Positions 1-19,310 of a stretch of DNA of 64,000 nt are shown piece after piece. The stretch covers positions 1-64,000 of the forward strand of contig CALXVY010000003.1 of NCBI GenBank assembly GCA_944392255.1. The letters run 5' to 3'. How positions within the stretch are numbered: position 1 is the first letter of the stretch; the number at the start of each line of letters is the position of its first letter. A program made the translations under genes and the position numbers. The stretch comes from an uncultured Alphaproteobacteria bacterium (GTDB lineage: Bacteria; Pseudomonadota; Alphaproteobacteria; RF32; CAG-239). The notes under the pieces were generated by a model. It ran no database searches, had not been told where the DNA came from, and saw only the letters and a program-made list of their open reading frames with translations.

Positions 1-381
1 AAAATGTATGTTATTCGTCCGCAGTTCTTTATCTCGATGATTACATTGCTTAGAAATGCGGCTTTGAATTCGGTTCAATATCGTAAACAATTGGCGGAAT
101 ATAAGAACCAAAATATAGATATTTCCAATTTTGAAGCTGAAATGAACGATTTTAAGGAGAAATTCGGACGTAATTATCAGTTGGCTAGTGACAAGTTCCG
201 CAAAGCGATTGAAGAGATTGATAAGACTATCGACCATTTGCAAAAGACAAAAGATGCCTTGCTTTCTTCTGAGAATAACTTGCGTTTGGCGAATAACAAA
301 GCTCAAGATTTGACGGTTAAACGTTTAACCCGCAATAACCCGACCATGGCTCAAAAATTCGCCGAATTGGAGCAGAAGTAA
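1..381 (+). CDS. DUF2130 family protein, C-terminal part
   Basis: This is the 3' end of a gene that begins before the window; the frame is open from base 1 and the ATG at base 4 is internal. The 125 visible residues read like the end of DUF2130 proteins: a segment with [17 protein letters not shown], then [25 protein letters not shown] and a closing [16 protein letters not shown]. It is highly charged and probably a long coiled coil. The family is widespread in bacteria, often with an N-terminal coiled coil and a nuclease-like core; its role is unknown. No terminator is obvious after the stop; AT-rich spacer follows. Family match is from memory of the conserved tail. Confidence 0.75.
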
Positions 382-554
382 TATTAATATGATAATACTT
401 CATTATAATAATTAAATTTATTACATTACTTTTGTTAAGAAAATTAAAAACAGCTTGTGCGTAAGTTTTGCATGTCCTTGAATACTTACTTGTTTTTCAG
501 TATGTTATTTTTGCTTTTATTGGTGAGATTAATTGTTTGATATGGAAAATAGAG

Positions 555-1331
555 ATGTATTTGCAAGATGTATTAAATTATAAAAGTAGTAATTATAGTT
601 ATCAAGCTGCAATTGATGTAAAAAAATTTTTTGAACCTACTATAAGTTATTGGGCAAATGGCTTATTAAATGATTTTTTTCTTGCGGGATCAGCTGCTAA
701 AGGAGTTGCAATAAAAGGAAAATCAGATTTTGATTTTTTTGTTTCCATTCATTACTCTTGTACCAATACTCTTGATGTTTTATATAATAGCTTATTTAAA
801 GAATTGTCTTCTTTAGGAAATAGAAAGGGATTTTCAGTTCGAAAACAAAATGTATCTTTAGGAATAAAGGGATTACGTTATAATAATACTCCTATTGATG
901 TTGATATTGTTCCCGCTAAGCAGCAAACTCTTAATTCCAATTTTCATAGTTTATATAAGTCAAAGCAAAATACATGGACTCAAACAAATGTAAAAGCGCA
1001 TATTGACTATATAAGAAAATCAGGTCGTCAGAATTTTATAAAACTTATTAAAATTTGGAGAGAATGCCATCGTTTAGAAATACCATCGATGAATTTGGAG
1101 TTGTCTGTATTGGAAGCTTTGCATGGTTATCCTCATGATATTTCTTTAGATAGAGGTTTCTTCCGTATAATGTCTTATTATAAGGACTCTTTTGTTTCTG
1201 CTAGAATGATAGATCCATGTAATACAAATAATATAATATCAGACGATATGACATACATAGAAAAAAATCAAGTTAAGCAAATGGCTGAAAATGCATTTTC
1301 TGCATCAGATTGGAGCGATATAATATGGTAG
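555..1331 (+). CDS. Nucleotidyltransferase, CD-NTase/CCA-class I-like fold
   Basis: The protein (258 residues from the ATG at 555) carries a complete nucleotidyltransferase active site: GSAAKG at about residues 45-50, the paired aspartates of SDFDFF at 58 and 60, and a third aspartate in DVDIVPA near 115-117. After it comes a helical region (FIKLIKIWRECH, then LELSVLEAL) resembling the substrate-binding domain of OAS/CCA-adding enzymes. Such enzymes transfer nucleotides to RNA, proteins or, in CBASS defence, make cyclic oligonucleotides. The frame is open upstream to a TTG at 468, but that extension is a hydrophobic stretch with no family resemblance, so I prefer 555. It overlaps the next gene by 7 bases. 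Ile ATA codons are conspicuous compared with neighbours, hinting at acquisition. Substrate is not predictable. Confidence 0.75.
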   Translation: MYLQDVLNYKSSNYSYQAAIDVKKFFEPTISYWANGLLNDFFLAGSAAKGVAIKGKSDFDFFVSIHYSCTNTLDVLYNSLFKELSSLGNRKGFSVRKQNVSLGIKGLRYNNTPIDVDIVPAKQQTLNSNFHSLYKSKQNTWTQTNVKAHIDYIRKSGRQNFIKLIKIWRECHRLEIPSMNLELSVLEALHGYPHDISLDRGFFRIMSYYKDSFVSARMIDPCNTNNIISDDMTYIEKNQVKQMAENAFSASDWSDIIW

Positions 1332-2089
1332 TTAGGCTAACAGAATTATTTGAAAATTTACAATCTCAAATGGTGAATATGATGGAGCAGAAATGTATTC
1401 CTCATGCTCCCACTAAAGGAGATTTAACAGAAGAAGCATGGAGAGTTTTTTTTAAAACATATCTTCCTAAACGTTATTCATGCGATAAAGCTTTTATTAT
1501 TGATCATCTAGGAGTTCTTAGTGATCAAATAGATGTTGTGATTTATGATGAACATTTCTCTCCTTTTATTTTTAATCGAGGTGGAGTAAAGTATATTCCT
1601 GCCGAAAGTGTTTATGCTGTTTTTGAAGTAAAACCATATCTTTCTAAGGAATATTTTGAATATGCTCAACAAAAAGCTTGCTCTGTTCGATGTTTAAAAA
1701 GGACAACTGCTCCTGTTTATTGTAATGGGGAATTAAAACAAGGAAGACAGCCCCCTCATATTATTGCAGGTATTTTAACAACTCATAAGGCATGGGAAAA
1801 TACATTGGTAGAACAAAAATTAGATCCAACTAGTGAAGGATTCTTAGATATTGGATGCTGCGTAAATGGAAAAAGTTGGATTTGGAATGATGGACAATAT
1901 TTATTGTCTCAACATGATAAAAATTCTTTATTAACATTCTTTATGGCTTTGTTAGAGCAATTGCAGCAATTGGGAACAGTTCCGGCTATGGAGATTCGCC
2001 AATATTTTGATGGTTTTAAAGAAGATACAGCGGAACTAGGTAGATCAATCATAGCTCAAACAGATTTTGATGTGTTTGATAGTAATTAA
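1325..2089 (+). CDS. DUF6602 protein, PD-(D/E)XK nuclease-like candidate
   Basis: The protein has 254 residues from the ATG at 1325, which overlaps the TAG of the nucleotidyltransferase gene (ATGGTAG), so translation is probably coupled. It shows the DUF6602 layout: KGDLTEEAWRVFF, then YLPKRY, SDQIDVVIYD and YIPAESVYAVFEVK. The aspartate at residue 70 and the ExK at 101-103 are spaced like a PD-(D/E)XK nuclease core (inference). The C-terminal half is less conserved. No signal peptide or membrane segment. Linked genetically to the upstream nucleotidyltransferase, it could be its effector in a defence cassette; alternatives are a toxin-antitoxin-like pair or RNA repair. A TTG at 1310 would add five residues and is less likely. 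Confidence 0.75.
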   Translation: MVVRLTELFENLQSQMVNMMEQKCIPHAPTKGDLTEEAWRVFFKTYLPKRYSCDKAFIIDHLGVLSDQIDVVIYDEHFSPFIFNRGGVKYIPAESVYAVFEVKPYLSKEYFEYAQQKACSVRCLKRTTAPVYCNGELKQGRQPPHIIAGILTTHKAWENTLVEQKLDPTSEGFLDIGCCVNGKSWIWNDGQYLLSQHDKNSLLTFFMALLEQLQQLGTVPAMEIRQYFDGFKEDTAELGRSIIAQTDFDVFDSN

Positions 2090-2278
2090 AACTATGGTTT
2101 TGTTCTAGATGTTATTATTAATATGAACTAGATATAGCTAAAGTTAACCTCAAGTCATTGATGGCGATAAGTTGAAAAAACAATATCGAGTCTGGAGAGG
2201 GATAATATATATCAGGTGAGATACGAAATTGATTAAAATCCCGTAAGCTATTGAAATACAAAGATTGGTAATAAAAAA

Positions 2279-2328
2279 GTTCGGATGTTGCTCAAAAAAA
2301 GCCTATTTTGACTTTTAAACATCCGAAC
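2279..2328. repeat. 11-bp inverted repeat with 28-nt loop
   Basis: GTTCGGATGTT at 2279-2289 is matched by AACATCCGAAC at 2318-2328. It lies between the DUF6602 stop and tRNA-Gln. The rest of 2090-2278 shows no convincing reading frame or promoter. The hairpin could end the cassette transcript, although it lacks a following T run, or mark a past integration boundary. Confidence 0.55.
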
Positions 2329-2350
2329 CAGTATAAATGCTTGATATATA

Positions 2351-2378
2351 AAGAAAAAACCGTCATTTCTGACGGTTT
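2351..2378 (-). terminator. Rho-independent terminator of tRNA-Gln
   Basis: On the minus strand AAACCGTCA, a GAAA loop and TGACGGTTT form a perfect 9-bp hairpin followed by a T run. It sits eight bases past the CCA end of tRNA-Gln. Confidence 0.85.
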
Positions 2379-2386
2379 GTATTCTG

Positions 2387-2461
2387 TGGCTGGGGTGGCT
2401 GGATTCGAACCAACGAATGACGATACCAAAAACCGTTGCCTTACCACTTGGCGACACCCCA
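2387..2461 (-). tRNA. tRNA-Gln (anticodon UUG)
   Basis: Read on the minus strand the 75 bases fold as a tRNA: acceptor stem TGGGGTG/CACCCCA, D-arm with CCAAGTGG, anticodon stem ACGGT/ATCGT around the loop TTTTGGT (anticodon TTG), T-arm with GGTTCGAATCC, discriminator G and an encoded CCA. A promoter lies just upstream and a terminator just downstream, so it is a single-gene unit. The accessory nucleotidyltransferase/DUF6602 cassette adjoins its 3' end, a common integration position. Confidence 0.95.
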
Positions 2462-2479
2462 ATCTCGATAACGAAGCTA

Positions 2480-2508
2480 TATATATTCTATATTTTTTTA
2501 TTTGGCAA
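2480..2508 (-). promoter_or_regulatory. Sigma-70 promoter of tRNA-Gln
   Basis: Minus-strand TTGCCA (2503-2508) and TATATA (2480-2485) are separated by 17 bases, about 19 bases before the mature tRNA 5' end. Confidence 0.6.
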
Positions 2509-2597
2509 GTATTTTTTTTCTTTTTTTGTTGAACTTTTTTTTAGTCTATTAAATCTATTGATTTATCATATAGTTATTATTTTTATTAATTGAAATT

Positions 2598-3467
2598 TTA
2601 GAGGCTTTTGCGTTCCAAATGCTGATTTTTAGAATCATATATTATTATTTTTAAGTCATTTGTTTGATGGTCGTTACTTACGGTAACAACTGTCGTTTCG
2701 CCAATTTTTTCATAAAAATTTTTACTCAATTCTGCCGCGTCATGTATATGACCATGGAGTGTAAGTAAAGGTTGATATTTTTTTATAAATTCTAAAACTC
2801 CACGGCTCCCAACATGTTTGTATATTACCGTATCATTTTGTTTGATGGCGGTGTAATCACAAACAGTATTATAGGGTGGTGCGTGTGTTATTAAAACCAA
2901 TTTTTTAGGATTAAGTTTGCCATATTTTGCGCTTAACTCCAAATCAATAGCATTGTCCATCATTGTTTCATAAATAGAATAGGGGACTTTATTGTCATCA
3001 CCTTGACTGATGAAACCTTCTATTCTGGTATCTTCTCGAAAAGAAACGTCAGTTTCGGTGTGCAAATCTCTTTTTTCCCAATCTTTCCATTGGAAAGGTG
3101 TGTAGGGAACGTAGGTATAGCCGGCAAAAATATATTCTCCATATTCAAAAGGAATTTCATCAATCAAATGAAAGCCTATTTTTTCTTGATTTTCTTCAAA
3201 AAGGTAGTGGTTGGCTTTATAGTCATCATTTCCCATAATTAAAGCAATTTGAAGTGGATTTTGTTTTTGAATGTTTTGGATTAAGGGAAAAAGCTCTTTT
3301 AAGATAAAATTCCTTTGGCCTACTACACTTCTTCTTTTTTCATCTTTAGGAGTCAAATCTCCGCCCAGAATGACCAAATCAATATTTTCTTGTTTGGCAA
3401 AGTTGAAGAGTTTATTGTATTGAACTATATTGCCGTGTAAGTCTGCTGTAAAAATAAACTTTACCAT
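2598..3467 (-). CDS. Calcineurin-like metallophosphoesterase
   Basis: The 289-residue protein has the ordered metal-binding motifs of the metallophosphoesterase fold: ADLHG with D9 and H11, GGD with D37, MGNDDY with N80, then LITHAPP and LHGHIH toward the C-terminus. These enzymes use two metal ions to cleave phosphomono- or diesters; the substrate cannot be told. No signal peptide, so cytosolic. It is transcribed alone, divergently from the beta-lactamase-fold hydrolase at 3556, with about 90 bases between them that would hold both promoters. Confidence 0.88.
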   Translation of the reverse strand: MVKFIFTADLHGNIVQYNKLFNFAKQENIDLVILGGDLTPKDEKRRSVVGQRNFILKELFPLIQNIQKQNPLQIALIMGNDDYKANHYLFEENQEKIGFHLIDEIPFEYGEYIFAGYTYVPYTPFQWKDWEKRDLHTETDVSFREDTRIEGFISQGDDNKVPYSIYETMMDNAIDLELSAKYGKLNPKKLVLITHAPPYNTVCDYTAIKQNDTVIYKHVGSRGVLEFIKKYQPLLTLHGHIHDAAELSKNFYEKIGETTVVTVSNDHQTNDLKIIIYDSKNQHLERKSL

Positions 3468-3555
3468 TTTTAAGATACCGCATATAAAAGAGATAATAAT
3501 CTAATATAAGACTTGGAAAGATAATGTCAATTTGTTTGGATAAAGGTAAATAAAT

Positions 3556-4320
3556 ATGAAAGTGATTGTTCTTGGTTCAGGTTCGGCTTACGGATGTCCG
3601 ATGATTTTTAATAATTGGCGTAAACTCAAGCCTAATCATCCCAAAAATATTCGTAATCGCGCCTCTGTTTATATGGAGATTGAGGGAAAAAAATTTGTGG
3701 TTGATTGCGGTCCTGAATTTCGTTTGCAAATAAATCAGAATAATATTACCGATTTAGATGCTGTTTTTATCACTCATTCGCATTATGACCACATTGCCAG
3801 CGTACCGGAGCTTTCTCGAGCTTGCTCTGTTTTAGGACATCCGATAGAGGTTTGGTCAAGTATTGAAACGCAATCTGAGCTTAAGCAAGAATATCCGTTT
3901 TTGTTTAACGGAGAAGAGCAAGAAGGTGCTGGTTTGCATTGGAGAGTTTGTCCGAATGTTGGCGAATTTGAAGCTTGCGGTGTGAAGTTTCAAACTTTTC
4001 AAGTGCCGCATCATCGTTGGCGTTGTTCGGCTTTTCGGTATAAAGATTTTGCTTATGTGACCGATTGGGAAGAAATTCCTGAGGAAAGATTGCAAATTCT
4101 TCAAGGTGTGAAGACTTTGCTAATTGAGTGCAACAATGGCCTTTATCCGGAAAAGAACGGTCATAGTGATTTGGAAAATGTGAAAAAAATTGCTGAAATC
4201 ATCAAGCCTGAGCGTGTGATTTTAACACATCTTTCAGCTCGTGTGGATTATGAGGAAACTTTAGCCGCATTGCCCGAAGATTTTGAACTCGCTTATGATG
4301 GTATGAGTTTTAAAGTATAA
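3556..4320 (+). CDS. MBL-fold metal-dependent hydrolase, PhnP-like
   Basis: A 254-residue metallo-beta-lactamase-fold hydrolase. The zinc motif HSHYDH is at residues 74-79, with later histidines in VPHHRWR and ILTHLSARVDYE. The start VIVLGSGSAYGCP and the FVVDCGPEFR strand resemble the PhnP/phosphoribosyl cyclic phosphodiesterase and lipoate-type subgroup commonly found beside tatD in alphaproteobacteria; tatD is not here. The reaction is therefore uncertain: a phosphodiesterase is the likeliest guess. A spacer with AAAGG precedes the start, and a bidirectional terminator follows the stop. Confidence 0.85.
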   Translation: MKVIVLGSGSAYGCPMIFNNWRKLKPNHPKNIRNRASVYMEIEGKKFVVDCGPEFRLQINQNNITDLDAVFITHSHYDHIASVPELSRACSVLGHPIEVWSSIETQSELKQEYPFLFNGEEQEGAGLHWRVCPNVGEFEACGVKFQTFQVPHHRWRCSAFRYKDFAYVTDWEEIPEERLQILQGVKTLLIECNNGLYPEKNGHSDLENVKKIAEIIKPERVILTHLSARVDYEETLAALPEDFELAYDGMSFKV

Positions 4321-4324
4321 AAAT

Positions 4325-4347
4325 AAAGCCCTGAATTTCAGGGCTTT
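4325..4347. terminator. Bidirectional terminator
   Basis: AAAGCCCTGA and TCAGGGCTTT pair around a three-base loop, between the convergent MBL-fold and HAD genes. Confidence 0.85.
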
Positions 4348-4355
4348 GTAATTTA

Positions 4356-5213
4356 TTATTCCGCCAAAAGTTTTTTCTTTTCTTCTTTGGCTTTTAAGAC
4401 ATCCAAATCGCGTTCTTTGGCGAGCTTGTCTAAAATGGTTTTGACAACCTTATCAATTTGTTTCTCTTCACGATAATCGGCCGGCAAAGCAAAATTAACG
4501 CGACCATCACGCAAGAGTTTCAAAGCCGTGGCTTTATTGCTGCCGTTGGGGTTATAAACGGCTATTGCATTACCTTTGCGTTCTTTGGTGAGTTTCATGG
4601 AAGGAATATCGGTGCTTCCATCGCCAAAATATATCATTCTCGTGAACGGAATGCGGCGCTTGTCATCGGGCATAAACTCATTAACGGCACGATCTTCCAA
4701 TTTACCCAAACCTTTATTGATTTTTGATAGATATTGTGTCTTTGTAGAATAGTTGATTACGCGGGCAGGCCAAACCGGTTTACCTTCTTCATTAAAAGCA
4801 AAACTGCAGCCGAAAATGTCCTTAAAATATTTTTTGATTTTGCAACCGTATAAAATTTCTTCATAGCCAGCAGAGATGATATAATGCTCAATATCCAAAT
4901 CAAGCTTTTTGCCATATTCATTAATGCGGTCAAACCAACCTTCCACACCCGGAAAATATTTGATTTTTTTGCCGGCTTCGGCCATGTTTTCACGGGTAAG
5001 TTTGATATTGAGTTCTTCGGCTTTTTTTACAAAGTAGTACATTGAGCCGGTAACTTGATCGGCAAAGTGATCACGTCCCCATTTGTTGGCTTCATACCAG
5101 AAGTCATCCGGTTCCATGCCAAATTCGGGAATCAGGGCATAATTTTGCATATCGGTGGTGCTTAAAGTGCCATCAAAGTCATAAATCAATGCAACTTTTG
5201 TTCTTTTTGCCAT
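4356..5213 (-). CDS. HAD-superfamily hydrolase
   Basis: A 285-residue cytosolic phosphatase-like protein. Motif I is YDFDGTLS with the nucleophile D12 and acid D14; a serine-bearing motif II sits in HYIISAGYEE; the metal motif is YFGDGSTDIPSMK. The cap region contains the stretch around FWYEANKWGRDHF. Known HAD enzymes with this layout are phosphatases for small metabolites; substrate unknown. The C-terminus is lysine/glutamate rich (KEEKKKLLAE). It is monocistronic and divergent from glyQS. Confidence 0.85.
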   Translation of the reverse strand: MAKRTKVALIYDFDGTLSTTDMQNYALIPEFGMEPDDFWYEANKWGRDHFADQVTGSMYYFVKKAEELNIKLTRENMAEAGKKIKYFPGVEGWFDRINEYGKKLDLDIEHYIISAGYEEILYGCKIKKYFKDIFGCSFAFNEEGKPVWPARVINYSTKTQYLSKINKGLGKLEDRAVNEFMPDDKRRIPFTRMIYFGDGSTDIPSMKLTKERKGNAIAVYNPNGSNKATALKLLRDGRVNFALPADYREEKQIDKVVKTILDKLAKERDLDVLKAKEEKKKLLAE

Positions 5214-5309
5214 TTTTTGTAATCTCCTACTTGCTTTTTGCGAATATTCATTATAAAAATAACAAGTTAATTTTTTGATAAAAACTTTTTAATGTAAAGG
5301 ATTAAGAAA

Positions 5310-6674
5310 ATGCCAGCAACAACTATGGACCAGTTGGTCTCTTTGTGCAAACGTCGTGGTTTCATCTTTCAGAATGCCGATATTTATGGCGGTATGCAAG
5401 GTTTGTACGATTATGGTCCGTTAGGCGTTGAGCTCAAAAACAACGTTAAAGCCGCTTGGTGGCGTGCTATGGTTTATGAGCGTGATGATATCGAAGGTTT
5501 GGATGCTGCCATTTTAACCAACCGCAAAGTTTTGCATTATTCCGGTCATGAAGATACTTTCTCTGACCCGATGACAGATTGCCGTAAATGTAAAGGTCGT
5601 TTTCGCGCCGACCATATTAAAGACGGTAAATGCCCGAACTGCGGTTCAACAGATTTAACTGAGCCTCGTCCTTTTAACTTGATGTTTAAAACAACGGTTG
5701 GACCAGTTGAAAATGCTGATAATATTGCTTATTTGCGTCCCGAGACCGCGCAAGCCATCTTCACACAATTTCGTAATGTGGTTGACTCTACTTCTCGCAA
5801 ATTGCCTTTTGGTATTGCCCAAATCGGTAAATCTTTCCGTAATGAAATTACCCCGAGAAACTTTATTTTCCGCGTGCGTGAATTTGAACAAGCTGAGCTT
5901 GAATATTTTGTAATGCCGGGTGAAGATGAAAAATGGCATGAAATGTGGAAAGAAGCTCGCATTCAATGGTGGGAAGAGCAAGGTTTGCCGCGTGAACACA
6001 TGAACATCTATACCACACCGAAAGATGATTTGGCTCACTATGCTAAAGCTTGCTATGATATTGAATATCAGTTCCCGCATGGTATGGAAGAACTTGAAGG
6101 TATTGCTAACCGTACCGACTATGACTTGGGTAACCATACCAAAGGTCAAGATGAATTGAACTTGACGGCTCATTGCCACAAAAACTCTGATTCAACCCAA
6201 AAACTTTGCATTTTGGATGACAACAACAAACCGGTTGTTCCATTCGTGATTGAGCCTTCTATGGGTGTTGATCGTGCGGTTTTGGCTTTGTTGACCGAAG
6301 CTTACACCGAAGAAGATTTGGGCAACGGCAACAGCCGTATTGTTTTGAAACTCAAAAAACACCTCGCTCCGATTAAAGTTGCGGTTATTCCGTTGAAGAA
6401 AAACAATGAGCAAATTATGGCCAAATGCCACGAGATTAAAAAGAATTTGCTTAAACTCGGTATCGGTCGTGTAGCTTTGGAAAATACCGGTAATATCGGT
6501 AAGGCTTATCGTCGTCATGATGAAGTTGGTACGCCGCTCTGCATTACGGTTGACTTTGAAACCATCGAACAACAACCCGAATCGGTTACCATTCGTGACA
6601 GAGATACCATGGAACAACATCGCGTAAATATTGCTGATTTACCGGCTTATCTCCGCGAATATTTCAATAACTAA
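5310..6674 (+). CDS. glyQS: Glycyl-tRNA synthetase, single-chain type
   Basis: A 454-residue class II synthetase that charges tRNA-Gly with glycine in the cytosol. It starts [20 protein letters not shown], typical of the single-chain (alpha-2) GlyRS of Gram-positives, archaea and eukaryotes. Class II motif 2 is in [17 protein letters not shown] and motif 3 in [14 protein letters not shown]; the C-terminal anticodon-binding domain begins around [10 protein letters not shown]. Four cysteines at 91, 94, 108 and 111 form a zinc site. Most alphaproteobacteria instead use the two-subunit GlyQ/GlyS enzyme, so this copy may have been acquired by transfer. Codon use blends with neighbouring core genes. 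A terminator follows. Confidence 0.97.
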
Positions 6675-6690
6675 GTTTATTTAGAAAAAG

Positions 6691-6722
6691 TCCCTTGCTC
6701 TTCTCGGGTGAGGGATTTTTTT
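6691..6722 (+). terminator. Terminator of glyQS
   Basis: TCCCTTGCTC pairs (with wobbles) with GGGTGAGGGA around TTCTC, followed by a T run. It reaches to within 17 bases of the uvrC start. Confidence 0.8.
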
Positions 6723-6738
6723 GATTCTGAGGCAGCCC

Positions 6739-8646
6739 ATGGGAAATATTCAACAAGGTTTGGAAAACTTAAAGCGACACATTAAAATTGCGCCCGAAGC
6801 CCCCGGTGTGTACCGTATGCTCGGCGAAAATGATGAAGTGCTTTATGTGGGCAAAGCCAAAAATATCAAAAAAAGAATCGTAGCTTATTCTCATTTTGAC
6901 AAACTCCCCATTCGTTTGCAGCGTATGGTTTCGCAAATCAAACGGATGGAATTTATCATCGTGGAAAATGAGGCTAAAGCCTTGCTCATGGAAAATGAGC
7001 TGATTAAAGAGCTGGAGCCGAAATATAACATCTTGCTCAAAGATGACAAAACTTTTCCGCACCTTGTGATTGATGTTACCTCAAAATTTCCGAGCTTGCG
7101 CAAATATCGCGGAAAACGTCAGGATAAAAACAAATATTTTGGTCCTTTTGCCAGTGTGACCGCCGTTAACAGTGTGTTGGACATTGTGCAAAAAGCCTTC
7201 CTTTTGCGCTCTTGTCGTGACGGAGTGTTTAATAATCGGCAACGTCCTTGTTTGATGTATCAAATCAAGCGTTGTTCTGCACCTTGTGTGGGGCGAATTT
7301 CAGAAGAAGATTATAAACAACTGGTGCAAGAAGCCATAGATTTTTTGGAAGGCAAAAATACCAAACTGCAAGAAGAACTCTCTGCCCAAATGAATGAGGC
7401 GAGTGAGCGTTTGGACTATGAAACCGCGCTGGTGTTGCGCGACCGTATTAAAGCTCTGGCTTCGGTTCAACGCGGCAACAATGTGGAATATGCCGATATT
7501 AAATCCGTGGATATGATTGCTCTCGTACGTAAAAATAATCTTGTCTGTATTCAGGTCTTTTTTATCCGTTCGGGTCAGAACTGCGGTAATGCGCCATATT
7601 TTCCCAAGCAGATTGAAGATGCCGATGATAATGAAATTTTAGAAGCTTTTTTGAGTAGTTTCTATTCTTCTCATATTCCGCCGAAAGAGATTGTCCTCTC
7701 GCAAGAAATTGAGAATAAAGAGTTTTTGGAAGAGGCGCTTGCAACCCGAATCAATACCTATCAAAAAGGCAATAAAGCGCATATCATCAATATGGTCAAA
7801 GCTAATGCCGAAGCTTCTATTGACCGCAAAATTGCCGAGCAAGCCTCGGTTAAAAGCAATTTGGAAGAAATGGTCAAATGGTTTGATTTACCACGCATTC
7901 CGCAGCGCATTGAAATTTATGATAACTCGCACAACCAAGGATCCTTTGCCATTGGTGCCATGGTTGTTGCCACGCCCGATGGTTTTGATAAAAAGTCTTA
8001 TCGCCAATTTAATATAAAAGAAAGTGACTTCAAACATCGCCAAGAGGAAAACGATTTTAAGCGTCATCTAGAGGCGTCTTCCGGTGTTGGAAATCAATCA
8101 AGTCAATTTGCAAATTCTTCTCAAAAAATCATCAACCAAGATGACTTTTTGATGATGAAAGAGGTGCTCCTTCGTCGTTTTGCGCGGATGACACCGGAAA
8201 ATAAACCCGATGTCATTCTGCTTGATGGTGGTCTCGGGCAACTTCATGCCGTGCATGAAGCGCTCAAAGATTTTGACCTTTCAGGAATCGCCATTATTGC
8301 CATTTCCAAAGGTCCAGACCGAAATGCCGGTAAAGAATTTTATCATCAGCTTGGCAAAGAAAGTTTCTCGCTGCCGTTCCAATCTCCGATAGCTTTTTAT
8401 CTGCAAAATCTGCGTGATGAGGCACACCGTTTTGCTATCGGAACACATCGCGCTCGTCGTGCAAAATCAATATCCAAATCTAAACTTGATGAAATTGAAG
8501 GAATCGGTGCTCGTCGTAAGCGCGATTTACTCAATTATTTCGGTTCGGTGGAAGAAATTTCACAATCTAGTATCAAAGATTTGCAAAAAGTTGCCGGTAT
8601 CAGTAAAAAAACAGCGGAAAAAATTTATAACTACTTCCATTTTTGA
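6739..8646 (+). CDS. uvrC: Excinuclease ABC subunit C
   Basis: UvrC makes both incisions around bulky DNA lesions after UvrA/UvrB recognition. The 635-residue protein has the N-terminal GIY-YIG nuclease (GVYRML then VLYVGKAKNI), cysteines near RSCRDGVF, a UVR motif (LDYETALVLRDRIKAL) that contacts UvrB, the RNase H-like second nuclease (IEIYDNSHNQG) and a C-terminal helix-hairpin-helix pair (IEGIGARRKRDLL, VAGISKKTAEKI). I chose the ATG at 6739 because GAGG stands seven bases before it; a TTG at 6721 lies in the glyQS terminator. uvrA and uvrB are elsewhere in the window. uvrC-pgsA adjacency is usual in alphaproteobacteria. Confidence 0.97.
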   Translation: MGNIQQGLENLKRHIKIAPEAPGVYRMLGENDEVLYVGKAKNIKKRIVAYSHFDKLPIRLQRMVSQIKRMEFIIVENEAKALLMENELIKELEPKYNILLKDDKTFPHLVIDVTSKFPSLRKYRGKRQDKNKYFGPFASVTAVNSVLDIVQKAFLLRSCRDGVFNNRQRPCLMYQIKRCSAPCVGRISEEDYKQLVQEAIDFLEGKNTKLQEELSAQMNEASERLDYETALVLRDRIKALASVQRGNNVEYADIKSVDMIALVRKNNLVCIQVFFIRSGQNCGNAPYFPKQIEDADDNEILEAFLSSFYSSHIPPKEIVLSQEIENKEFLEEALATRINTYQKGNKAHIINMVKANAEASIDRKIAEQASVKSNLEEMVKWFDLPRIPQRIEIYDNSHNQGSFAIGAMVVATPDGFDKKSYRQFNIKESDFKHRQEENDFKRHLEASSGVGNQSSQFANSSQKIINQDDFLMMKEVLLRRFARMTPENKPDVILLDGGLGQLHAVHEALKDFDLSGIAIIAISKGPDRNAGKEFYHQLGKESFSLPFQSPIAFYLQNLRDEAHRFAIGTHRARRAKSISKSKLDEIEGIGARRKRDLLNYFGSVEEISQSSIKDLQKVAGISKKTAEKIYNYFHF

Positions 8647-8701
8647 ATAGAATATTTTACTATCAGTAAAAAATTAAATTCATCTTTTAGGGGAACATAA
8701 C

Positions 8702-9421
8702 GTGTATAACTTACCTAATCTCTTAACAATTTCCAGAATAATCGTCATTCCGGTTATCTTTCTGGCTATTTACATTCATACAGCTTGGTGGTCATTGTTG
8801 ACAGCGGTTTTGTTTATTGTTGCTGCTGTTACCGACTATTTGGATGGTTATTTGGCTCGTTCTCGTAACGAGACATCCGCTTTTGGTCGCTTGCTTGACC
8901 CCATTGCCGATAAACTTTTGGTCGTTTCTGCGCTACTCATAATTGTTGCCAATCATTTGGTTGATGAGATAAGCTATATTCCGGTTTGTATTATCATGTG
9001 CCGAGAGATTTTGGTTTCTGGTTTGCGCGAGTTTTTAGCTGAAGTTAAAGTCGGAATGCCGGTAACTCGCTTGGCAAAATGGAAAACTGCCGTACAAATG
9101 ACAGCCCTTTCTATGATTTTAGTGAGTGCCGTTTCTTCGGCTTATCCTGAAAATATGTTTGTTTCAGTTGTTGGTGTTGTTGGCGAAATTTTGCTTTGGA
9201 TTGCCGGTGCTTTGACTTTTATGACCGGATATGATTATTTTCAACGCGGCTTGGATTATGTTAGAAATTTAGAAGCTCAAAAGAAATCTGCTCCTGTTCA
9301 AGCTCCTAAAGCAGCTGTGGCTGAAGACAACAAAAAAGCTCCTAAATCTAAGAAATCAGCTACAAAAAAGAAAAATACGCGCAAAACAGTTCGTGCGAAA
9401 AAGGCGGCAAAAGCCGAATAA
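8702..9421 (+). CDS. pgsA: CDP-diacylglycerol-glycerol-3-phosphate phosphatidyltransferase
   Basis: PgsA makes phosphatidylglycerol phosphate, the committed step to phosphatidylglycerol and cardiolipin, in the inner membrane. The CDP-alcohol phosphotransferase signature is complete: D48-G49, A52-R53, G62, D66 and D70. Several hydrophobic helices surround it. The GTG start at 8702 is supported by AGGGGA eight bases upstream. The last 35 residues are an added lysine/alanine-rich tail (KKSATKKKNTRKTV), which is longer than in common PgsA proteins and may bind acidic lipid or nucleic acid (inference). Follows uvrC by 55 bases and precedes the response regulator by 10. Confidence 0.95.
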   Translation: MYNLPNLLTISRIIVIPVIFLAIYIHTAWWSLLTAVLFIVAAVTDYLDGYLARSRNETSAFGRLLDPIADKLLVVSALLIIVANHLVDEISYIPVCIIMCREILVSGLREFLAEVKVGMPVTRLAKWKTAVQMTALSMILVSAVSSAYPENMFVSVVGVVGEILLWIAGALTFMTGYDYFQRGLDYVRNLEAQKKSAPVQAPKAAVAEDNKKAPKSKKSATKKKNTRKTVRAKKAAKAE

Positions 9422-9431
9422 GGCCTTTTGA

Positions 9432-10121
9432 ATGGAAAATATAAAAGCTCATATTTTGGTGGTGGATGATGACACCAGATTGCGTTCTCTCTTACAACGT
9501 TTCTTAAGAGAGAACGGCTTTTATGTTTCTGTGGCAAAAAATGCTTCTTGTGCGCGTCAGCAATTACAAAATTATCAATTTGATTTGTTAATTGTCGATA
9601 TCATGATGCCGGAAGAAACAGGCTTGCAGTTTTTGCATAAATTGCGTGAAGAAAGCAATGTGCCGGTTATTTTGTTAACAGCTATGGGTGAGACGGAGGA
9701 TAGAATCCTTGGATTAGAAACCGGTGCTGATGATTATTTGCCTAAACCTTTTGAACCTAAAGAACTGGTTTTAAGGATTAAAAATATTTTACGTCGCACC
9801 CCGACACCTAAAGAAAATGAAAATCAAATCTTGAATTTAGGGTTATGTTGTTATGATTTGATGAAAAAAGAATTGCTTTCAAAAAATGGACAACTTATTC
9901 ATATTACGCCTGTGGAGCAGTCTTTGTTGAATATTTTAGGACAAAAGTCCGGACAAGTATTTTCTCGTGAAAAATTGGCAGAGATGCTTGGCGCCGGACA
10001 AAATCCACGTTCCATTGATGTACAAATTACTCGTCTGCGCAAAAAAATTGAAAAAGATTCTAAAAATCCACGCTGTTTGCAAACTGTGCGTGGTAAAGGA
10101 TATATGTTGTTGCCGTCTTAG
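9432..10121 (+). CDS. OmpR-family response regulator
   Basis: A 229-residue two-component regulator: receiver domain with acidic pair in ILVVDDDTRLR, phospho-acceptor D56 (LIVDIMMPEE), conserved T in VILLTAMG and K in YLPKPFEPKEL; then an OmpR-type winged helix (GQVFSREKLAE, SIDVQITRLRKKIE, TVRGKGYML). It should bind DNA when phosphorylated by the histidine kinase encoded 45 bases downstream. Ten bases separate it from pgsA, so it may be read through from uvrC-pgsA. Its targets are not visible. An OmpR, PetR or ChvI-like function cannot be distinguished. Confidence 0.93.
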   Translation: MENIKAHILVVDDDTRLRSLLQRFLRENGFYVSVAKNASCARQQLQNYQFDLLIVDIMMPEETGLQFLHKLREESNVPVILLTAMGETEDRILGLETGADDYLPKPFEPKELVLRIKNILRRTPTPKENENQILNLGLCCYDLMKKELLSKNGQLIHITPVEQSLLNILGQKSGQVFSREKLAEMLGAGQNPRSIDVQITRLRKKIEKDSKNPRCLQTVRGKGYMLLPS

Positions 10122-10166
10122 TCGGCATGGATAATTGCATTTTTTATAACTAAATAGGAGAAGAAT

Positions 10167-11525
10167 ATGCGCATAAAGTTTCCTGAAAAAGTGGATAATG
10201 TGTTAAGATATTTGAAGCTTAAATTTATGCCTAAAACATTGTTTTTTAGAACAATGTTGTTGATTTTTATTCCGCTGATTGTGGTGCAGGTTGTTTCAAT
10301 TATTGCTTTTTTTGACGGAAGCTGGGGGCGTGTTGGAAAACGTTTGTCTACAAACTTAACTTCCGATATGGCCTTCGTGATGGAATTAACTGAAAAAACA
10401 CCAAATAAACTTAAAGATATTCAGGCTTTGGCTAAAAAGAATTTTGATTTTGAATATAATTATTATAACAATAAGCAAAAGCATAATGTTATGAATAAGG
10501 CTAGCCGCAATAATCGTTTAATTACCGGTTTCTTGGAAGATTCTCTTCGTCATGAATTTCCTGATGCCATTACTTCAATCTATATGGGTAAGGGGGAAAA
10601 AGACCTTATGGTATTGATTGACAGACCTAATGGTTTGTATCAGTTCCAAACTTCTTCTAAAAATATTTTTAGTAGTTCTATTTTTGGATTTGTTTTATGG
10701 ATGATTGGAACATCGGCTCTCCTTTTCTTGGTTGCTGTTTTGTTTTTACGTATTCAGGTTCGTTCCATTGCCGAATTGGCTCAAGTTGCCGAAGATTTTG
10801 GTAAAGGTATTGATAATAAAGATTTCAAACCTTATGGTTCTTCCGAAGTTAGAAAAGCCGCTATTGCCTTTATTAAAATGAAAGAACGTATTAATCGTCA
10901 GATTAGTGAACGTACGCAGATGTTGGCCGGCGTTTCTCATGATTTGAGAACTCCGCTTACTCGTATGAAATTGCAAAGTTCTATGATGGCAGATGGGCAA
11001 GATAAAAAGGATTTTCTTTCTGATATTGATGAGATGGAGAAAATGCTTGATGGTTATTTGGCTTTTGTGAGCGGAGAAGGTTCTGAAAAAGCGACTTTTG
11101 TTGATATGAATGAAATGATTTTGAGTATTATTAATAAATTCCGTAATACTCAGGCCATGATACGTTATTCTACCAATGATCAAGTGAGCGCCATTCAGGG
11201 GCGTGAACAAGCTTTGAAAAGAGCTTTAACCAATATTATTTCTAATGCTTTCCGTTATGGTAAGACTATTGCGGTTAAATTGGAAAGTAATAATAATAAG
11301 TTGGAAGTTACAATTGATGATGATGGTCCGGGTATTCCTGTTGATAAACGAGAAGATGTTTTCAAGGCATTTTATCGTTTGGAAGAATCTCGCAATAAGG
11401 AAACAGGAGGCGTTGGACTTGGACTTTCTATTGCTAAAGATGTGATTACTTCTCATGGTGGTCGAATTGAACTCTTAGATAGTCCGTTGGGTGGATTAAG
11501 AGTTCTGGTTTCTATTCCCTTATAG
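10167..11525 (+). CDS. EnvZ-type sensor histidine kinase
   Basis: A 452-residue inner-membrane kinase. A first membrane segment around residues 25-45, a periplasmic sensor region of about 125 residues, a second segment near 172-195 (FVLWMIGTSALLFLVAVLFL), a HAMP linker, the dimerisation helix with phospho-H258 (AGVSHDLRTPLTRMK) and a HATPase domain with N (NIISNAFRYG), DDGPGIP and GGVGLGLSIAKD. The HDLRTPLTR form of the H box is that of EnvZ-like kinases. The upstream SD is AGGAGAAG. Partner of the response regulator immediately before it. The stimulus is unknown. Confidence 0.93.
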   Translation: MRIKFPEKVDNVLRYLKLKFMPKTLFFRTMLLIFIPLIVVQVVSIIAFFDGSWGRVGKRLSTNLTSDMAFVMELTEKTPNKLKDIQALAKKNFDFEYNYYNNKQKHNVMNKASRNNRLITGFLEDSLRHEFPDAITSIYMGKGEKDLMVLIDRPNGLYQFQTSSKNIFSSSIFGFVLWMIGTSALLFLVAVLFLRIQVRSIAELAQVAEDFGKGIDNKDFKPYGSSEVRKAAIAFIKMKERINRQISERTQMLAGVSHDLRTPLTRMKLQSSMMADGQDKKDFLSDIDEMEKMLDGYLAFVSGEGSEKATFVDMNEMILSIINKFRNTQAMIRYSTNDQVSAIQGREQALKRALTNIISNAFRYGKTIAVKLESNNNKLEVTIDDDGPGIPVDKREDVFKAFYRLEESRNKETGGVGLGLSIAKDVITSHGGRIELLDSPLGGLRVLVSIPL

Positions 11526-11623
11526 GACACCTTTACGAAAGTTTCTGGGATTTTATTTATCTTAAAATTTCAGAATCAGATAAATTAATCTGAATTTTGT
11601 TTAGGTGGCTGTGTTTCTCAAAC

Positions 11624-11660
11624 AAAGCGGTTTTAAGAAGATTTCTTAAAGCCGCTTTTT
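11624..11660 (+). terminator. Terminator after the two-component operon
   Basis: AAAGCGG plus TTTTAAGAA pairs with TTCTTAAA plus GCCGCTTT, followed by a T run. It lies about 100 bases after the kinase stop. Confidence 0.8.
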
Positions 11661-11726
11661 GTTAAAATGATTTTAAGAATCTTTTTTTATTATACAATAA
11701 ATATGTTAAAAATGAGAGGCAAAGCG

Positions 11727-13787
11727 ATGGATAATATACAAAATTCGGCTCCAAATAATACTTCTACTGAAGAATTTGAATATATTGAACTAGAAGAAGG
11801 GCAGGAATTGCCCGAGGGTTATGAATATGAGTATATCGAGGTTCCTGCTGATGATGTTTCGGAAATGGATGTTGTCAATCGTTCTCATGTGCTTGAACCA
11901 GAAGATGAAGATATGGCATCTGTTTCAGATATAGAAGCTGCTTTGCGTTCTTCTCAAGAGGAGGAAGTTAAAAAAGAAGTTCCTTTTCCATCCTTTTTAT
12001 TAGAGAATAATGATGACAATCAAAATTCTTTTTCCGCTTCGCAAAATGAAGATTTTGAGGATAAATCGTCATTAACAGATGTTTCTGAATTTGTGCCTCA
12101 GGAAGAAACTTCTCCTTCTAACATGAATAATGATTATTCAGATATAAATTTTTTGAATAATCCCGAAAATGTTGAAAATTGGCAAGAAGATACGCGTGCT
12201 ACACATGATTTATCTGAAGTTATGGTCGATACCAGAGATGTGCATTTTCAAGAAAATAATATTTCAAGTATGGATGTAAATGATTATATTGAACCAGAAG
12301 CTCATTATTCTATTAAGGAAGTATCCGTAACGGAATTGCCTTCCGAACCACAAAAAGCGGAAGCAAATGTTTCGGTTGAAGATTTAGCTGAACAAATGCC
12401 TCAATCTGAAATTGATAGTTCTTTTTCATCGTTGGATTTGGGTGAAAATGAAGTTTCTTTAGATGAATTGTTGCAAGCAGATAATGATGCACCTATGGCT
12501 GTTGCGCAAGCTGAAGAAGATATTTTAATTGATAATTCAGTTAGTGATGAACATAATGAAATTTATGACGATGATAGCAATATCATTGATGTTCCCGTAG
12601 AAGAAGATGTAACACCTATAGAGGAAATACCTGAGCAAAATACTGTTGAAATAGAAAATTCTTCTGTAGAACAATCATTTTCTCCATCAGAAACAGTAGA
12701 TACTTGGCAAAATGATGTTGAAAATCATCCGGTTAATGTTTGGGAAGAAGTGGCTCCCGACGTGTCGCCAGAACATATGGAAACTGCAGATTTTGTGTCA
12801 GAAAGTGAGCCTGAAAACAATGAAAATGATGAAAAGCAAGAAACATCTTTATCAATTGGTGAAAATATAGAAACAGTTAATCCTGCTCTTACAAATTTTG
12901 AGGTTATGGAATATTCTGCAGATGAATTGTCGCAAGCAGAGTTATCTTCTCGGTTGGTATCTAAGCAGCATGGTTTGCAATCATTCAATGCTAATGAAAA
13001 TGTTTTTGATATTTTGTTAAGTGATGTTGATTTTGCTAAAAATGAATTGGCGGATTGGAATCTGATTTTATTTAATCAGAGTATTGTTCCTCTCAATAAA
13101 CAAGTCGCAGAATTGAAAAAGCCTAACTTCAGAGGAATTAACCGATATATAAGCATTGTCCAAGAAGGCAATCAAAAGATAGATCTTTTTAATGAAGAAA
13201 ACTTGAAGATTATTAATGCTAGTCATGCTTGTGTTGCTGTGGATGGACATTTTATTTGCGGTGATTTTGAAAATAATTCAGGTGCTGTCGTTAATGATTT
13301 TATTACGCTTCATTTGCAAGAATACGCCGGAAAAAAATTAGCTTTTGAAAATGGGACTTCAGGAATTTTAACAGGTCCTAAGGGGTGTGTCTTATTTTTC
13401 TTTGGCGTTAAAAATTTATGGGTGCCCAGTTCTGATACGGCTAAAATTGATGAACAAAAATTACAAAATAAAATAGCAAAATGGTATAGCGGTCATTTAA
13501 GTGATAAGTATTTTGAATTTTCAGCTCAATCTGACAATGCTGAATTTATCGGAAATGACGAAATGAATGCAATCCACGTCAATGTCGGGGAAAGTACTTT
13601 TGGGTGGAATGTAATTTTTGATAATGGCGAGATGATGAGCTTGCAAGATGTAAAAGAATATCAAATGCGTTTTGGACAGTTGCCTTCTGCTCGCGGCAAA
13701 ATAGTGTTTGGTGAAAAAAGTTTGCAATTTGAAAATGTGGAGAGAATTGTTATTTATAAATCTGCACAGTATTGCTTTTATGAATAA
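11727..13787 (+). CDS. Acidic protein of unknown function
   Basis: I do not recognise this 686-residue protein. The first half (about residues 1-420) is strongly acidic, rich in E, D, S, N and probably disordered; near the start is a near-duplicated motif, EYIELEEGQELPEG followed by YEYEYIEVP. The last 260 residues look globular, with repeated strand-like stretches (HACVAVDGHFICGDF, GCVLFFFGVKNLWVP, ESTFGWNVIFDNGEMM). There is no signal peptide or membrane helix. I chose the ATG at 11727 because GAGAGG stands seven bases before it; an upstream in-frame ATG at 11667 lies right behind the terminator. Flanked by terminators on both sides, it is a single-gene unit. Confidence 0.8.
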   Translation: MDNIQNSAPNNTSTEEFEYIELEEGQELPEGYEYEYIEVPADDVSEMDVVNRSHVLEPEDEDMASVSDIEAALRSSQEEEVKKEVPFPSFLLENNDDNQNSFSASQNEDFEDKSSLTDVSEFVPQEETSPSNMNNDYSDINFLNNPENVENWQEDTRATHDLSEVMVDTRDVHFQENNISSMDVNDYIEPEAHYSIKEVSVTELPSEPQKAEANVSVEDLAEQMPQSEIDSSFSSLDLGENEVSLDELLQADNDAPMAVAQAEEDILIDNSVSDEHNEIYDDDSNIIDVPVEEDVTPIEEIPEQNTVEIENSSVEQSFSPSETVDTWQNDVENHPVNVWEEVAPDVSPEHMETADFVSESEPENNENDEKQETSLSIGENIETVNPALTNFEVMEYSADELSQAELSSRLVSKQHGLQSFNANENVFDILLSDVDFAKNELADWNLILFNQSIVPLNKQVAELKKPNFRGINRYISIVQEGNQKIDLFNEENLKIINASHACVAVDGHFICGDFENNSGAVVNDFITLHLQEYAGKKLAFENGTSGILTGPKGCVLFFFGVKNLWVPSSDTAKIDEQKLQNKIAKWYSGHLSDKYFEFSAQSDNAEFIGNDEMNAIHVNVGESTFGWNVIFDNGEMMSLQDVKEYQMRFGQLPSARGKIVFGEKSLQFENVERIVIYKSAQYCFYE

Positions 13788-13790
13788 GCA

Positions 13791-13824
13791 AAAAAAAGAA
13801 GGATAGAATATCCTTCTTTTTTTT
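13791..13824. terminator. Bidirectional terminator
   Basis: AAGAAGGATA and TATCCTTCTT around GAA, flanked by A and T runs, between convergent genes. Confidence 0.85.
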
Positions 13825-13825
13825 G

Positions 13826-14704
13826 TTAGTTTTTCGCCGGAAGCGGGAAGACTTTAACCGTTTCGTTTTCAGCACCTTGAGCCGTGTCAGCTTGGACATT
13901 CATTGTCATACCTTGCATCGTTTCAGATGAAGATGTTTGGACTGATGAGTCTTTGGATTTTTTCTGTGGCTTAGGAGCTTTAAGGCTCGGATCCAAAGGA
14001 TAGGCGTTCTTTGGTAAGCGCAAGAGCATATATCCGGTTCCTCCGCCGTATGCCGGACCGGAAAGTCCCAAAGAATAATATCCACCGATGAAACCATAGT
14101 CCAAATCTATATAATCAATGACGAAGATTGTTTTTATATTGGTTGTTCCGACTGTGGTCATTTTACAATTATATCCGGGGTCTTCCAGCAAAATGTGGTT
14201 AACATTGCGGACATATAAGATAGATTGTGCCGGTGTACAGTCCGGAGTTTGTCCATTGAATGTGACGTTATAATTGAGAATCAATTTTAAGGTATTGCTA
14301 CCTTTATTGATGATAACATCGGTGATTTTTACGGAATCAATGTACATATAGGCCGGGGTTATACCAACTTTAATAGGCAAGGTGATATAGTTTTCTAAGC
14401 AAGTTCGAGAAGATGGATTAGCCTGACAAACAAGCATTTTTTTATGATTATTGTTTTCAAACAGATGGAGCAAGCTATTATATATGTATTGGTTAGACAT
14501 AGATAATTTTGCCGGAGCGCATTGTTTACTGCGGCAAACAACAATTGACCCTACCTCTCTTAGGGGGGTATTTTCCACATTTTCAGAGTGCATGAATGTG
14601 GCGGATGGAATATTGTTAAAATTAGAATAACTCCATTTGCAGCCACATAAGGAGAGCATTGCAATGGTTAAAGAAAAACCGGTTTTTATATATTTATTGA
14701 ACAC
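13826..14704 (-). CDS. Lipoprotein of unknown function
   Basis: The 292-residue protein begins with a lipoprotein signal ending LCGC (lipidated C22), so it should be anchored in a membrane facing the periplasm. The middle contains several cysteines that could form disulfides (PDCTPAQ, GYNCKMTT) and glycine/tyrosine-rich strands (GFIGGYYSLGLSGPAYGGG). The C-terminus is low complexity (SSVQTSSSETMQG). I know no family for it. It is monocistronic, convergent with the acidic protein gene and divergent from the thermonuclease-like gene across about 165 AT-rich bases. Confidence 0.78.
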   Translation of the reverse strand: MFNKYIKTGFSLTIAMLSLCGCKWSYSNFNNIPSATFMHSENVENTPLREVGSIVVCRSKQCAPAKLSMSNQYIYNSLLHLFENNNHKKMLVCQANPSSRTCLENYITLPIKVGITPAYMYIDSVKITDVIINKGSNTLKLILNYNVTFNGQTPDCTPAQSILYVRNVNHILLEDPGYNCKMTTVGTTNIKTIFVIDYIDLDYGFIGGYYSLGLSGPAYGGGTGYMLLRLPKNAYPLDPSLKAPKPQKKSKDSSVQTSSSETMQGMTMNVQADTAQGAENETVKVFPLPAKN

Positions 14705-14868
14705 GAATCTATACTTTCAAAATTAAAAAACGTTTTTAATGTAAGAATATTAGAGCCAAAGAATGTAAACGACAAAGGATTTTTTTATTTATTAAACAGT
14801 TTTTTAGAAAATAAAAAGTTGATAATTTTTTTTGCTGAATTATGCTGTTTATAAATTGAGGTACTTAT

Positions 14869-15339
14869 ATGTATATAGAAAAGAAAAGTTGCTTATTTTA
14901 TTTTTTTTGTGCTTGTGTTGTTACTTGTTCGGCGCAAGCTCATGTTCAAGTTGTTGATGGGGATAGTTTGTTTCTTGGAAATAAAGAAGTCAGATTATCA
15001 GGAATCGATGCGCCCGAATATAAACAAACTTGTTTTGATGCCAAGCAAAAGGTTTATGATTGCGGCAAAAAAGCGACTCAGGCATTGAAAAAATTGGTGC
15101 ATGATGATATAAAATGTACAGAAGTTACTAAAGATAAATATAAGCGCTATGTCTCAGTTTGTTATAGTCACGGTATAAATATTAATAAAAAAATGGTTGA
15201 AGATGGTTGGGCCGTGGCTTATAAACGTTATACAAATGAATATAATCAGGCTGAATACCTTGCTAAAAAAGAGAAAAAAGGCATTTGGCAAGGGCGTTTT
15301 ATGAAGCCCGAACTTTATAGAATTTTGAATGAAAAATAA
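14869..15339 (+). CDS. Exported thermonuclease-family (SNase-like) protein
   Basis: A 156-residue protein with an N-terminal signal peptide (FYFFCACVVTCSAQA) followed by a staphylococcal-nuclease fold: HVQVVDGDSLFL, EVRLSGIDAPE with the catalytic-type arginine and calcium-site aspartates, then KYKRYVSVCY and WAVAYKRYTNEY. Family members cut DNA or RNA with calcium; whether this one is active is unproven. Two extra cysteines (TCFDAKQKVYDCG) may form a disulfide in the periplasm. It ends about 50 bases before the promoter of rplU. Confidence 0.9.
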   Translation: MYIEKKSCLFYFFCACVVTCSAQAHVQVVDGDSLFLGNKEVRLSGIDAPEYKQTCFDAKQKVYDCGKKATQALKKLVHDDIKCTEVTKDKYKRYVSVCYSHGININKKMVEDGWAVAYKRYTNEYNQAEYLAKKEKKGIWQGRFMKPELYRILNEK

Positions 15340-15389
15340 GAAAAAATGCTTTTTCTTGATGTTTTATTAATTTTTATAGAGATTCTTAC

Positions 15390-15417
15390 TTGACACAGCG
15401 AAAAACTTATGTATATT
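15390..15417 (+). promoter_or_regulatory. Promoter of rplU operon
   Basis: TTGACA (15390-15395) and TATATT (15412-15417) are 16 bases apart and about 48 bases before the rplU start. Confidence 0.75.
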
Positions 15418-15464
15418 GCAAAGCAACGTTTTATGTTTAAAATTGTAAAATTAGGTGAATAAAA

Positions 15465-15767
15465 ATGTACGCAGTAATTAGAACAGGCGGAAAACAATAT
15501 AAAGTAGCATCTGGTGATGTTATTAAAATTGAAAAAATCGCCGGTAATGAAGGTAGCGAAGTTGTATTTAATGAAGTTTTGGCTTGCGGTGAAACTATTG
15601 GTACTCCGCTCGTTGCAGGTGCTTCTGTCAAAGCTACCGTTTTAAAACAAGCTAAAGACGCAAAAGTTATTGTTTTCAAAAAGAAAAGAAGACAAAACTA
15701 TCGTCGTAAAAATGGCCACAGACAACAAATTACATTGGTTAAAATTACCGATGTTTGTGGTAAATAA
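15465..15767 (+). CDS. rplU: 50S ribosomal protein L21
   Basis: A 100-residue L21, a 23S rRNA-binding protein of the large subunit. It begins [18 protein letters not shown], the standard L21 opening, and has the basic [16 protein letters not shown] segment before the C-terminal TLVKIT. It heads the rplU-rpmA-obgE operon behind a near-consensus promoter. Confidence 0.98.
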
Positions 15768-15788
15768 GATATAAGGGAGTATTGAGTT

Positions 15789-17173
<1,385 letters not shown>

Positions 17174-17197
17174 TGGTGCAAAAGAAGGAGTAGAGAT

Positions 17198-17578
17198 TTG
17201 ATTAAAAAAACAAAAAAACAAACCTCCGAGCAAGATGCTGCAGAAATTTTGAAAATTGTGGTCGATACCTTAGATGAAGGTAAGGCTGAAAATATGGTTG
17301 TTATTGATTTGCAAGGAAAATCTTCTATTGCTAATCAGATGGTGATTGCCAGTGGTACATCACAACGACATGTTGCTTCTTTGGCAGAAAAAGTACAAGA
17401 AAAGCTTAAAGCAGCCGGATATCTTTCTATGGCAGAAGGTGAAGAAAAAGCTGATTGGGTCTTGATTGATGCTTTTGATGTGATTGTGCATATTTTTAAG
17501 CCGGAAGTTCGCGAGTTCTATAATCTGGAAAAAATGTGGGCTTCTATTGGAACTTTGAAAAAAGTCGGTGGAGAATAA
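17198..17578 (+). CDS. rsfS: Ribosomal silencing factor RsfS
   Basis: A 126-residue RsfS (Iojap/YbeB family), which binds L14 and blocks subunit joining during starvation. Typical stretches are MVIASGTSQRHVASLAEKV, ADWVLIDAFDVIVHIF and VREFYNLEKMW. It starts with TTG at 17198: AAGGAG lies seven bases upstream and no ATG suits. It follows obgE by 24 bases; the proA/nadD genes that often intervene are absent. Confidence 0.95.
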   Translation: MIKKTKKQTSEQDAAEILKIVVDTLDEGKAENMVVIDLQGKSSIANQMVIASGTSQRHVASLAEKVQEKLKAAGYLSMAEGEEKADWVLIDAFDVIVHIFKPEVREFYNLEKMWASIGTLKKVGGE

Positions 17579-17581
17579 ATT

Positions 17582-17616
17582 AAAAAAGCTGAGTGTTTGA
17601 ACTCAGCTTTTTTTTT
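17582..17616. terminator. Bidirectional terminator
   Basis: AAAAAGCTGAGT and ACTCAGCTTTTT pair around GTTTGA, between the convergent rsfS and the gene at 17615. Confidence 0.85.
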
Positions 17617-18079
17617 AATTTATTAAAGCGCAAAATATAATCAGAAGAATAAAAATCAGAAGAATGATTATTCTGATTTTTATATTTTCAATAAGATTGC
17701 GGTACTTTTGTTCCGGAGAACTAAAATTAAAACTTTTTTCTACCCCAAAAAGGTTCTTATCCAAAAATAAAATTTGATTGTGATATTTCCAGATTAAAAT
17801 CCAGCCTAATCTTTCAACATAATACATATAGCCTGAGCTTAGTTTGAAATCGCAACTCGGTCTGTGTAAACTGTATGGAACACCCCAAAAAAAGTTGTTT
17901 GATTTAATTTCATCACCCAAAACACAGGATATAGCCTCTGCTGCTTGTTTTTCATCTGAAATATTTTCAGACAAAGTGACCAGTTCCAAAGGGGAAGATA
18001 TAACTTCCTTATTTGACATCAATAATGCTTTTTGTTCTTGATGCCAAGAAGATAAAATATCAAAAATTTCTTTTTTCAT
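17615..18079 (-). CDS. Tail-anchored protein of unknown function
   Basis: I do not recognise this 154-residue protein. About 130 residues are soluble (with LGWILIWKYHNQILFLDKN), and the last twenty form a single hydrophobic helix (RIIILLIFILLIIFCALIN), so the N-terminal part would face the cytosol. It is inserted, on the opposite strand, between rsfS and rlmH, which are usually neighbours. Confidence 0.7.
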   Translation of the reverse strand: MKKEIFDILSSWHQEQKALLMSNKEVISSPLELVTLSENISDEKQAAEAISCVLGDEIKSNNFFWGVPYSLHRPSCDFKLSSGYMYYVERLGWILIWKYHNQILFLDKNLFGVEKSFNFSSPEQKYRNLIENIKIRIIILLIFILLIIFCALIN

Positions 18080-18164
18080 AATATTTAATTTAATAATTTT
18101 TATAATTGTATAAACGTAGATTTTAGATTATGTTTTTAAGAAAAAATGTCAAGAGAGGAATTCT

Positions 18165-19291: not shown

Positions 19292-19310
19292 TTTACAGTA
19301 ACAAGAAATT

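Follow-up and report, generated by a model that had tools for sequence, protein, structure and literature searches.

A probable two-gene CBASS operon with a NucC effector from an uncultured alphaproteobacterium

Two overlapping genes near the beginning of a 64,000-nucleotide stretch of an uncultured alphaproteobacterial genome (the whole stretch analysed, hereafter the window) encode a nucleotidyltransferase and a protein of the family DUF6602, raising the question of whether they form a defence cassette and, if so, of which kind. The original prediction of a possible CBASS-like cyclase-effector pair was borne out by family matches, folds and a patchy distribution, and the locus is very probably a type I CBASS operon of two genes whose effector is NucC. 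The host genome comprises 1.64 Mb in 43 contigs and is 100% complete, and the window begins at the left end of contig C3.

The two genes and their products

The first gene (555 to 1331, plus strand) encodes a short CD-NTase, i.e. a CBASS oligonucleotide cyclase, of 258 aa, and the second (1325 to 2089, plus strand) encodes a NucC endonuclease of 254 aa. Both ORFs are intact and, as first described, overlap, the seven shared bases ATGGTAG (1325 to 1331, plus strand) holding the cyclase stop and the NucC start, through which translation of the two genes may be coupled. The seven-base overlap recurs as ATGGTAA in a genome of another genus in the same family (G008), with equal spacing in the locus L037, and is a four-base ATGA in the rhizobial loci. 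The AT bias noted in the codons was also evident, with a third-position GC of 0.17 in both genes, the lowest ranks among the 48 long ORFs of the window, vs 0.30 +/- 0.06 (mean, sd) for that set. An Rfam scan of the region placed a tRNA alone above the gathering score, and a promoter scan across the region returned fewer sites than expected by chance.

The cyclase was matched end to end by the PADLOC CBASS cyclase profile PDLC00803 (residues 2-258, 2.3e-73) and more weakly by nine further PADLOC cyclase profiles. Pfam gave only weak matches, including SMODS at 0.0017, under the cut-off, and the NCBIfam model CBASS_cyclase_a matched at 5.4e-15, under its strict cut-off, which counts against the CBASS reading. 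An AlphaFold2 model built from an alignment of 19 sequences (pLDDT 91.9) had as its top PDB folds E. coli CdnC and P. aeruginosa CdnD (E 7e-13 to 1e-11), the best being E. coli CdnC 6u7b (E 7e-13), and the proposed structural check thus returned a CD-NTase fold. The GS/DxD/D site that had been read from the sequence was located at G45-S46, D58xD60 and D115xD117, with G45-S46, D58, D60 and D117 invariant over the 19 aligned sequences and D115 varying. Profile, residues and CdnC fold together indicate a CD-NTase cyclase with an intact catalytic site.

The second gene carries the Pfam label DUF6602, as anticipated (PF20247, 6.8e-29), and is NucC rather than an uncharacterised DUF6602 nuclease. 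It was matched by the PADLOC NucC profiles PDLC00745 (3.9e-78) and PDLC01051 (3.6e-52), and a phmmer search of the PDB returned only NucC, as five distinct sequences (3.8e-44 to 2.7e-39), among them 6uxf (3.8e-44) and 6p7o (5.2e-40). Its AlphaFold2 model (pLDDT 80.8) matched 6uxf (E 1.1e-26, TM 0.84), answering the suggested check for a PD-(D/E)XK fold, and a fold search with the model recovered 14 NucC chains (E 1e-26 to 3e-19), beyond which there were only weak restriction-enzyme matches. The D...ExK core claimed for this protein is D70...E101-V-K103, which aligns with the active-site D, E and K of known NucC and is invariant among relatives; in the E. coli and P. aeruginosa sequences crystallised with cA3, the residue opposite D70 is N (QINVV for QIDVV). 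The fold and the D...E-x-K active site of NucC are therefore both present. A C-terminal tail of about 20 residues (residues 234-254, window 2024-2086) has low model confidence and is missing in the aligned relatives. A NucC search of a phage collection gave no match.

R50 and T218 are kept in the window NucC, with R50 nearly invariant among relatives, and F78 sits where relatives usually have Y. By comparison with the E. coli NucC structure, R50 and T218 are putative residues of the cA3 pocket, and position 78 would lie near the ligand pocket. With F78 in place of the usual Y, the cA3 affinity of the window NucC could differ from that of its relatives.

Expected mechanism and its signal

From its family, the NucC encoded here is predicted to be an effector activated by a cyclic nucleotide. 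NucC trimers bind cA3, pair into hexamers and cut double-stranded DNA, upon which the infected cell dies (PMC10419184, PMC11676413), and a CRISPR NucC is likewise activated by cA3 (PMC8682760). In the window system, phage infection would switch on the short CD-NTase, which would then make a cyclic trinucleotide from ATP; the CdnC fold and the NucC partner make cA3 the likeliest product. As established for other NucCs, cA3 would then bind the NucC trimer and cause hexamers to form by pairing, these hexamers would cut double-stranded DNA without sequence specificity, and the infected cell would be expected to die or stop ahead of phage maturation. Against this, no activity, nucleotide product or phage phenotype was found in the literature for this pair or for any member of the short-cyclase subfamily.

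A signal other than 3'3'3'-cA3 (a mixed-base or 2'-5'-linked cyclic trinucleotide) is unlikely, and a NucC CBASS with such a shifted signal would modify the preferred explanation, not contradict it. In favour of a shifted signal, identity between the short cyclase and CdnC is only about 20% along the fold alignment, and the pocket region of NucC is slightly different at F78. Against it, R50 and T218, as putative ligand residues, are kept, and the NucCs assayed in the literature surveyed respond to cA3 (PMC8682760, PMC10419184).

Where the two-gene form occurs

When GTDB genome contigs were scanned with a cyclase alignment, 19 loci in four phyla emerged, comprising Alphaproteobacteria, Betaproteobacteria (Variovorax), Paenibacillus, one myxobacterium and one acidobacterium; one of the 19, L026, appears to be the G008 locus. 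A single-sequence NucC scan of the genome contigs returned no relatives. Profile HMMs for NucC, HORMA, TRIP13 and CdnC were built in this analysis and run on all six frames, and NucC was found directly downstream of the cyclase in 18 of the 19 loci, giving a positive outcome to the proposed survey of whether DUF6602 genes recur beside such nucleotidyltransferases. The exception is an Archangium MAG, in which a SAVED-domain CBASS effector takes the place of NucC; here (L038, 5890-9048) the short-family cyclase, the SAVED-domain effector that follows it and another, different CD-NTase appear to form one operon.

The HORMA and TRIP13 HMMs gave no match in the 19 loci (~6 kb around) or in window positions 1-20000; they were positive in two type III plasmid loci, which are their own source, and remoter HORMA or TRIP13 proteins could escape them. 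A HORMA search of the host genome gave no match, and as its control genomes gave none either, this silence carries no weight. The nearest neighbours of the pair are, by Pfam, a DUF2130 gene and a calcineurin-like phosphoesterase, with neither Cap2 nor Cap3 among the immediate neighbours.

Plasmids carrying the cyclase-NucC pair were found in Rhizobium, Sinorhizobium, Paracoccus, Paenibacillus and Cupriavidus, and a Deinococcus plasmid carries a remoter cyclase without NucC. The rhizobial and Paenibacillus plasmid pairs, consisting of a 'nucleotidyltransferase' and a DUF6602 gene, have the same genes, order and close spacing as the window pair, but are only about 38-46% identical to it and lie on plasmids. 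Abi-family genes lie close to two of the rhizobial plasmid copies.

By definition, a type I CBASS consists of one cyclase and one effector without ancillary genes (PMC10419184, PMC11676413), and the window locus shares this two-gene organisation, differing in having NucC as the effector. The effector gene is adjacent to the cyclase, no HORMA or TRIP13 gene was detected in the operon, and the HORMA and TRIP13-like genes of a type III operon were seen neither at the locus nor in its 19 relatives. The assignment to type I CBASS with NucC follows from the direct downstream position of NucC in nearly all loci, the lack of HORMA or TRIP13 nearby and the lack of a detectable Cas10.

The four-gene CdnC-HORMA-TRIP13-NucC system of E. 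coli MS115-1 (type III CBASS) shares its effector family with the window locus, at about 35% identity between the NucCs, and offers the nearest solved cyclase fold, so the cA3-NucC step is expected to be alike. The window locus differs in having only two genes, without HORMA or TRIP13, and in a cyclase about 60 aa shorter than the MS115-1 CdnC. That the pair is merely what remains of such a type III operon after loss of its regulators is suggested by the closest solved folds, which are CdnC, CdnC:HORMA complexes and the NucC of type III loci, but is very improbable. The cyclase falls in a separate short family, and the two-gene order is common to 18 loci from several phyla, mostly with tight coupling and with catalytic residues intact. 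Further, the NucC tree places two-gene copies on both sides of the midpoint root, interleaved with type III and CRISPR copies. Such a pattern is not expected of a recently wrecked operon, and the degenerate type III reading is largely refuted. The tree points to an exchange of NucC between signal sources, tentatively so because several of its branches are long.

The NucCs associated with CRISPR in Vibrio metoecus and Serratia are homologues of the window NucC, and receive their signal from Cas10, whereas the window NucC would receive it from the neighbouring CD-NTase. That the window NucC instead serves a type III CRISPR system, with an incidental cyclase, is barely credible: its best match in both sequence and fold is the CRISPR-associated V. 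metoecus protein (38% identity, fold alignment), but a search of the genome for Cas10, the mark of a type III CRISPR effector system, returned nothing over the cut-off, and the cyclase is directly coupled to NucC throughout all but one of the relatives. A Cas10 match below the cut-off on contig C4 was rejected, as its sequence reads as that of a GGDEF protein.

Returning to the type I operon, there is about an even chance that the short cyclases are a distinct CD-NTase subfamily specialised for NucC, sensing phage directly without HORMA or TRIP13. If so, they would define a minimal, regulator-free cA3-NucC system spread over several phyla and not yet studied biochemically.

To our knowledge, the NucC loci so far studied, i.e. 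those of type III CBASS, have both HORMA and TRIP13. In a review table, NucC appears only under type III CBASS and type III CRISPR (PMC10952713), and the recurrent two-gene form adds a CBASS home for NucC beside these usually cited ones. The view that the combination was functionally undescribed did not hold, since the DUF6602 protein proves to be NucC, a CBASS effector whose structure and biochemistry have been characterised, and both proteins have profiles in PADLOC. These dedicated profiles indicate that both were catalogued as CBASS parts by 2023, and the window locus is a fresh occurrence of a catalogued system, not a novel kind. In the open literature, no paper found mentioned DUF6602 and no study of a two-gene NucC CBASS was found; Lau 2020, Ye 2020 and Millman 2020 lay outside this search, and no claim of first description is made. 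Through the link to NucC, the DUF6602 genes of such pairs gain a function. What a CD-NTase senses directly, and how a lethal DNase stays silent without HORMA and TRIP13, are questions most simply asked in a two-gene system.

Genomic setting of the pair

Both proteins were searched in 88 genomes spanning the genus, family, order and class, among which full-length matches outside the window's own genome were found only in G008, where they are neighbours, with identities of 60 and 66%. Judged from the sequences, the G008 pair adjoins one large recombinase-like ORF and a fragment of a second. The pair was missing from all five congeners (5/5), and hence does not have the presence in all related genomes that the original prediction had named as evidence against itself. 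The other outcome named there, a structure prediction with neither fold, did not occur either.

Comparison of the window with two of the congeners (G001 and G002) by blastn showed homology ending at 380 and resuming at 2145/2146, with the DUF2130 gene upstream of the pair kept in both. At the same interval, G002 has an acetyltransferase, a NUDIX-like ORF, a peptidase S51 and a lipoprotein-like ORF, and G001 has AAA kinase-like, PIN-like and ASCH genes. Given this break in homology and these other genes, the pair occupies an interval (382 to 2145, no strand) whose gene content differs between species of one genus.

The pair had been said to adjoin the 3' end of a tRNA, taken as an island site. 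The 3' end of tRNA-Gln (2387-2461, minus strand) does face the pair, but 'adjoins' is loose, as it lies 298 bases away behind a conserved spacer (2146-2386). This spacer is conserved in G001 and G002, and the variable segment is not bounded by the tRNA. Of the tRNA-Gln, these two congeners retain just 15-21 bases of the 3' end at this place before unrelated sequence begins (window 2387-2407; L025 4859; L024 5768). The tRNA as a border of the insert was therefore rejected, since the spacer intervenes and the break is on its other side; the tRNA-Gln end is instead a rearrangement breakpoint that faces away from the pair. Beyond this break, G001 has a Fic-domain gene. Across the three species, the variable spot between the DUF2130 gene and the conserved 240-base spacer extends over window 382-2145, L024 3003-5556 and L025 5120-7691. 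The interval in G002 also contains an extra, 82% identical copy of the first ~95 bases of the spacer, as though by addition of cassettes.
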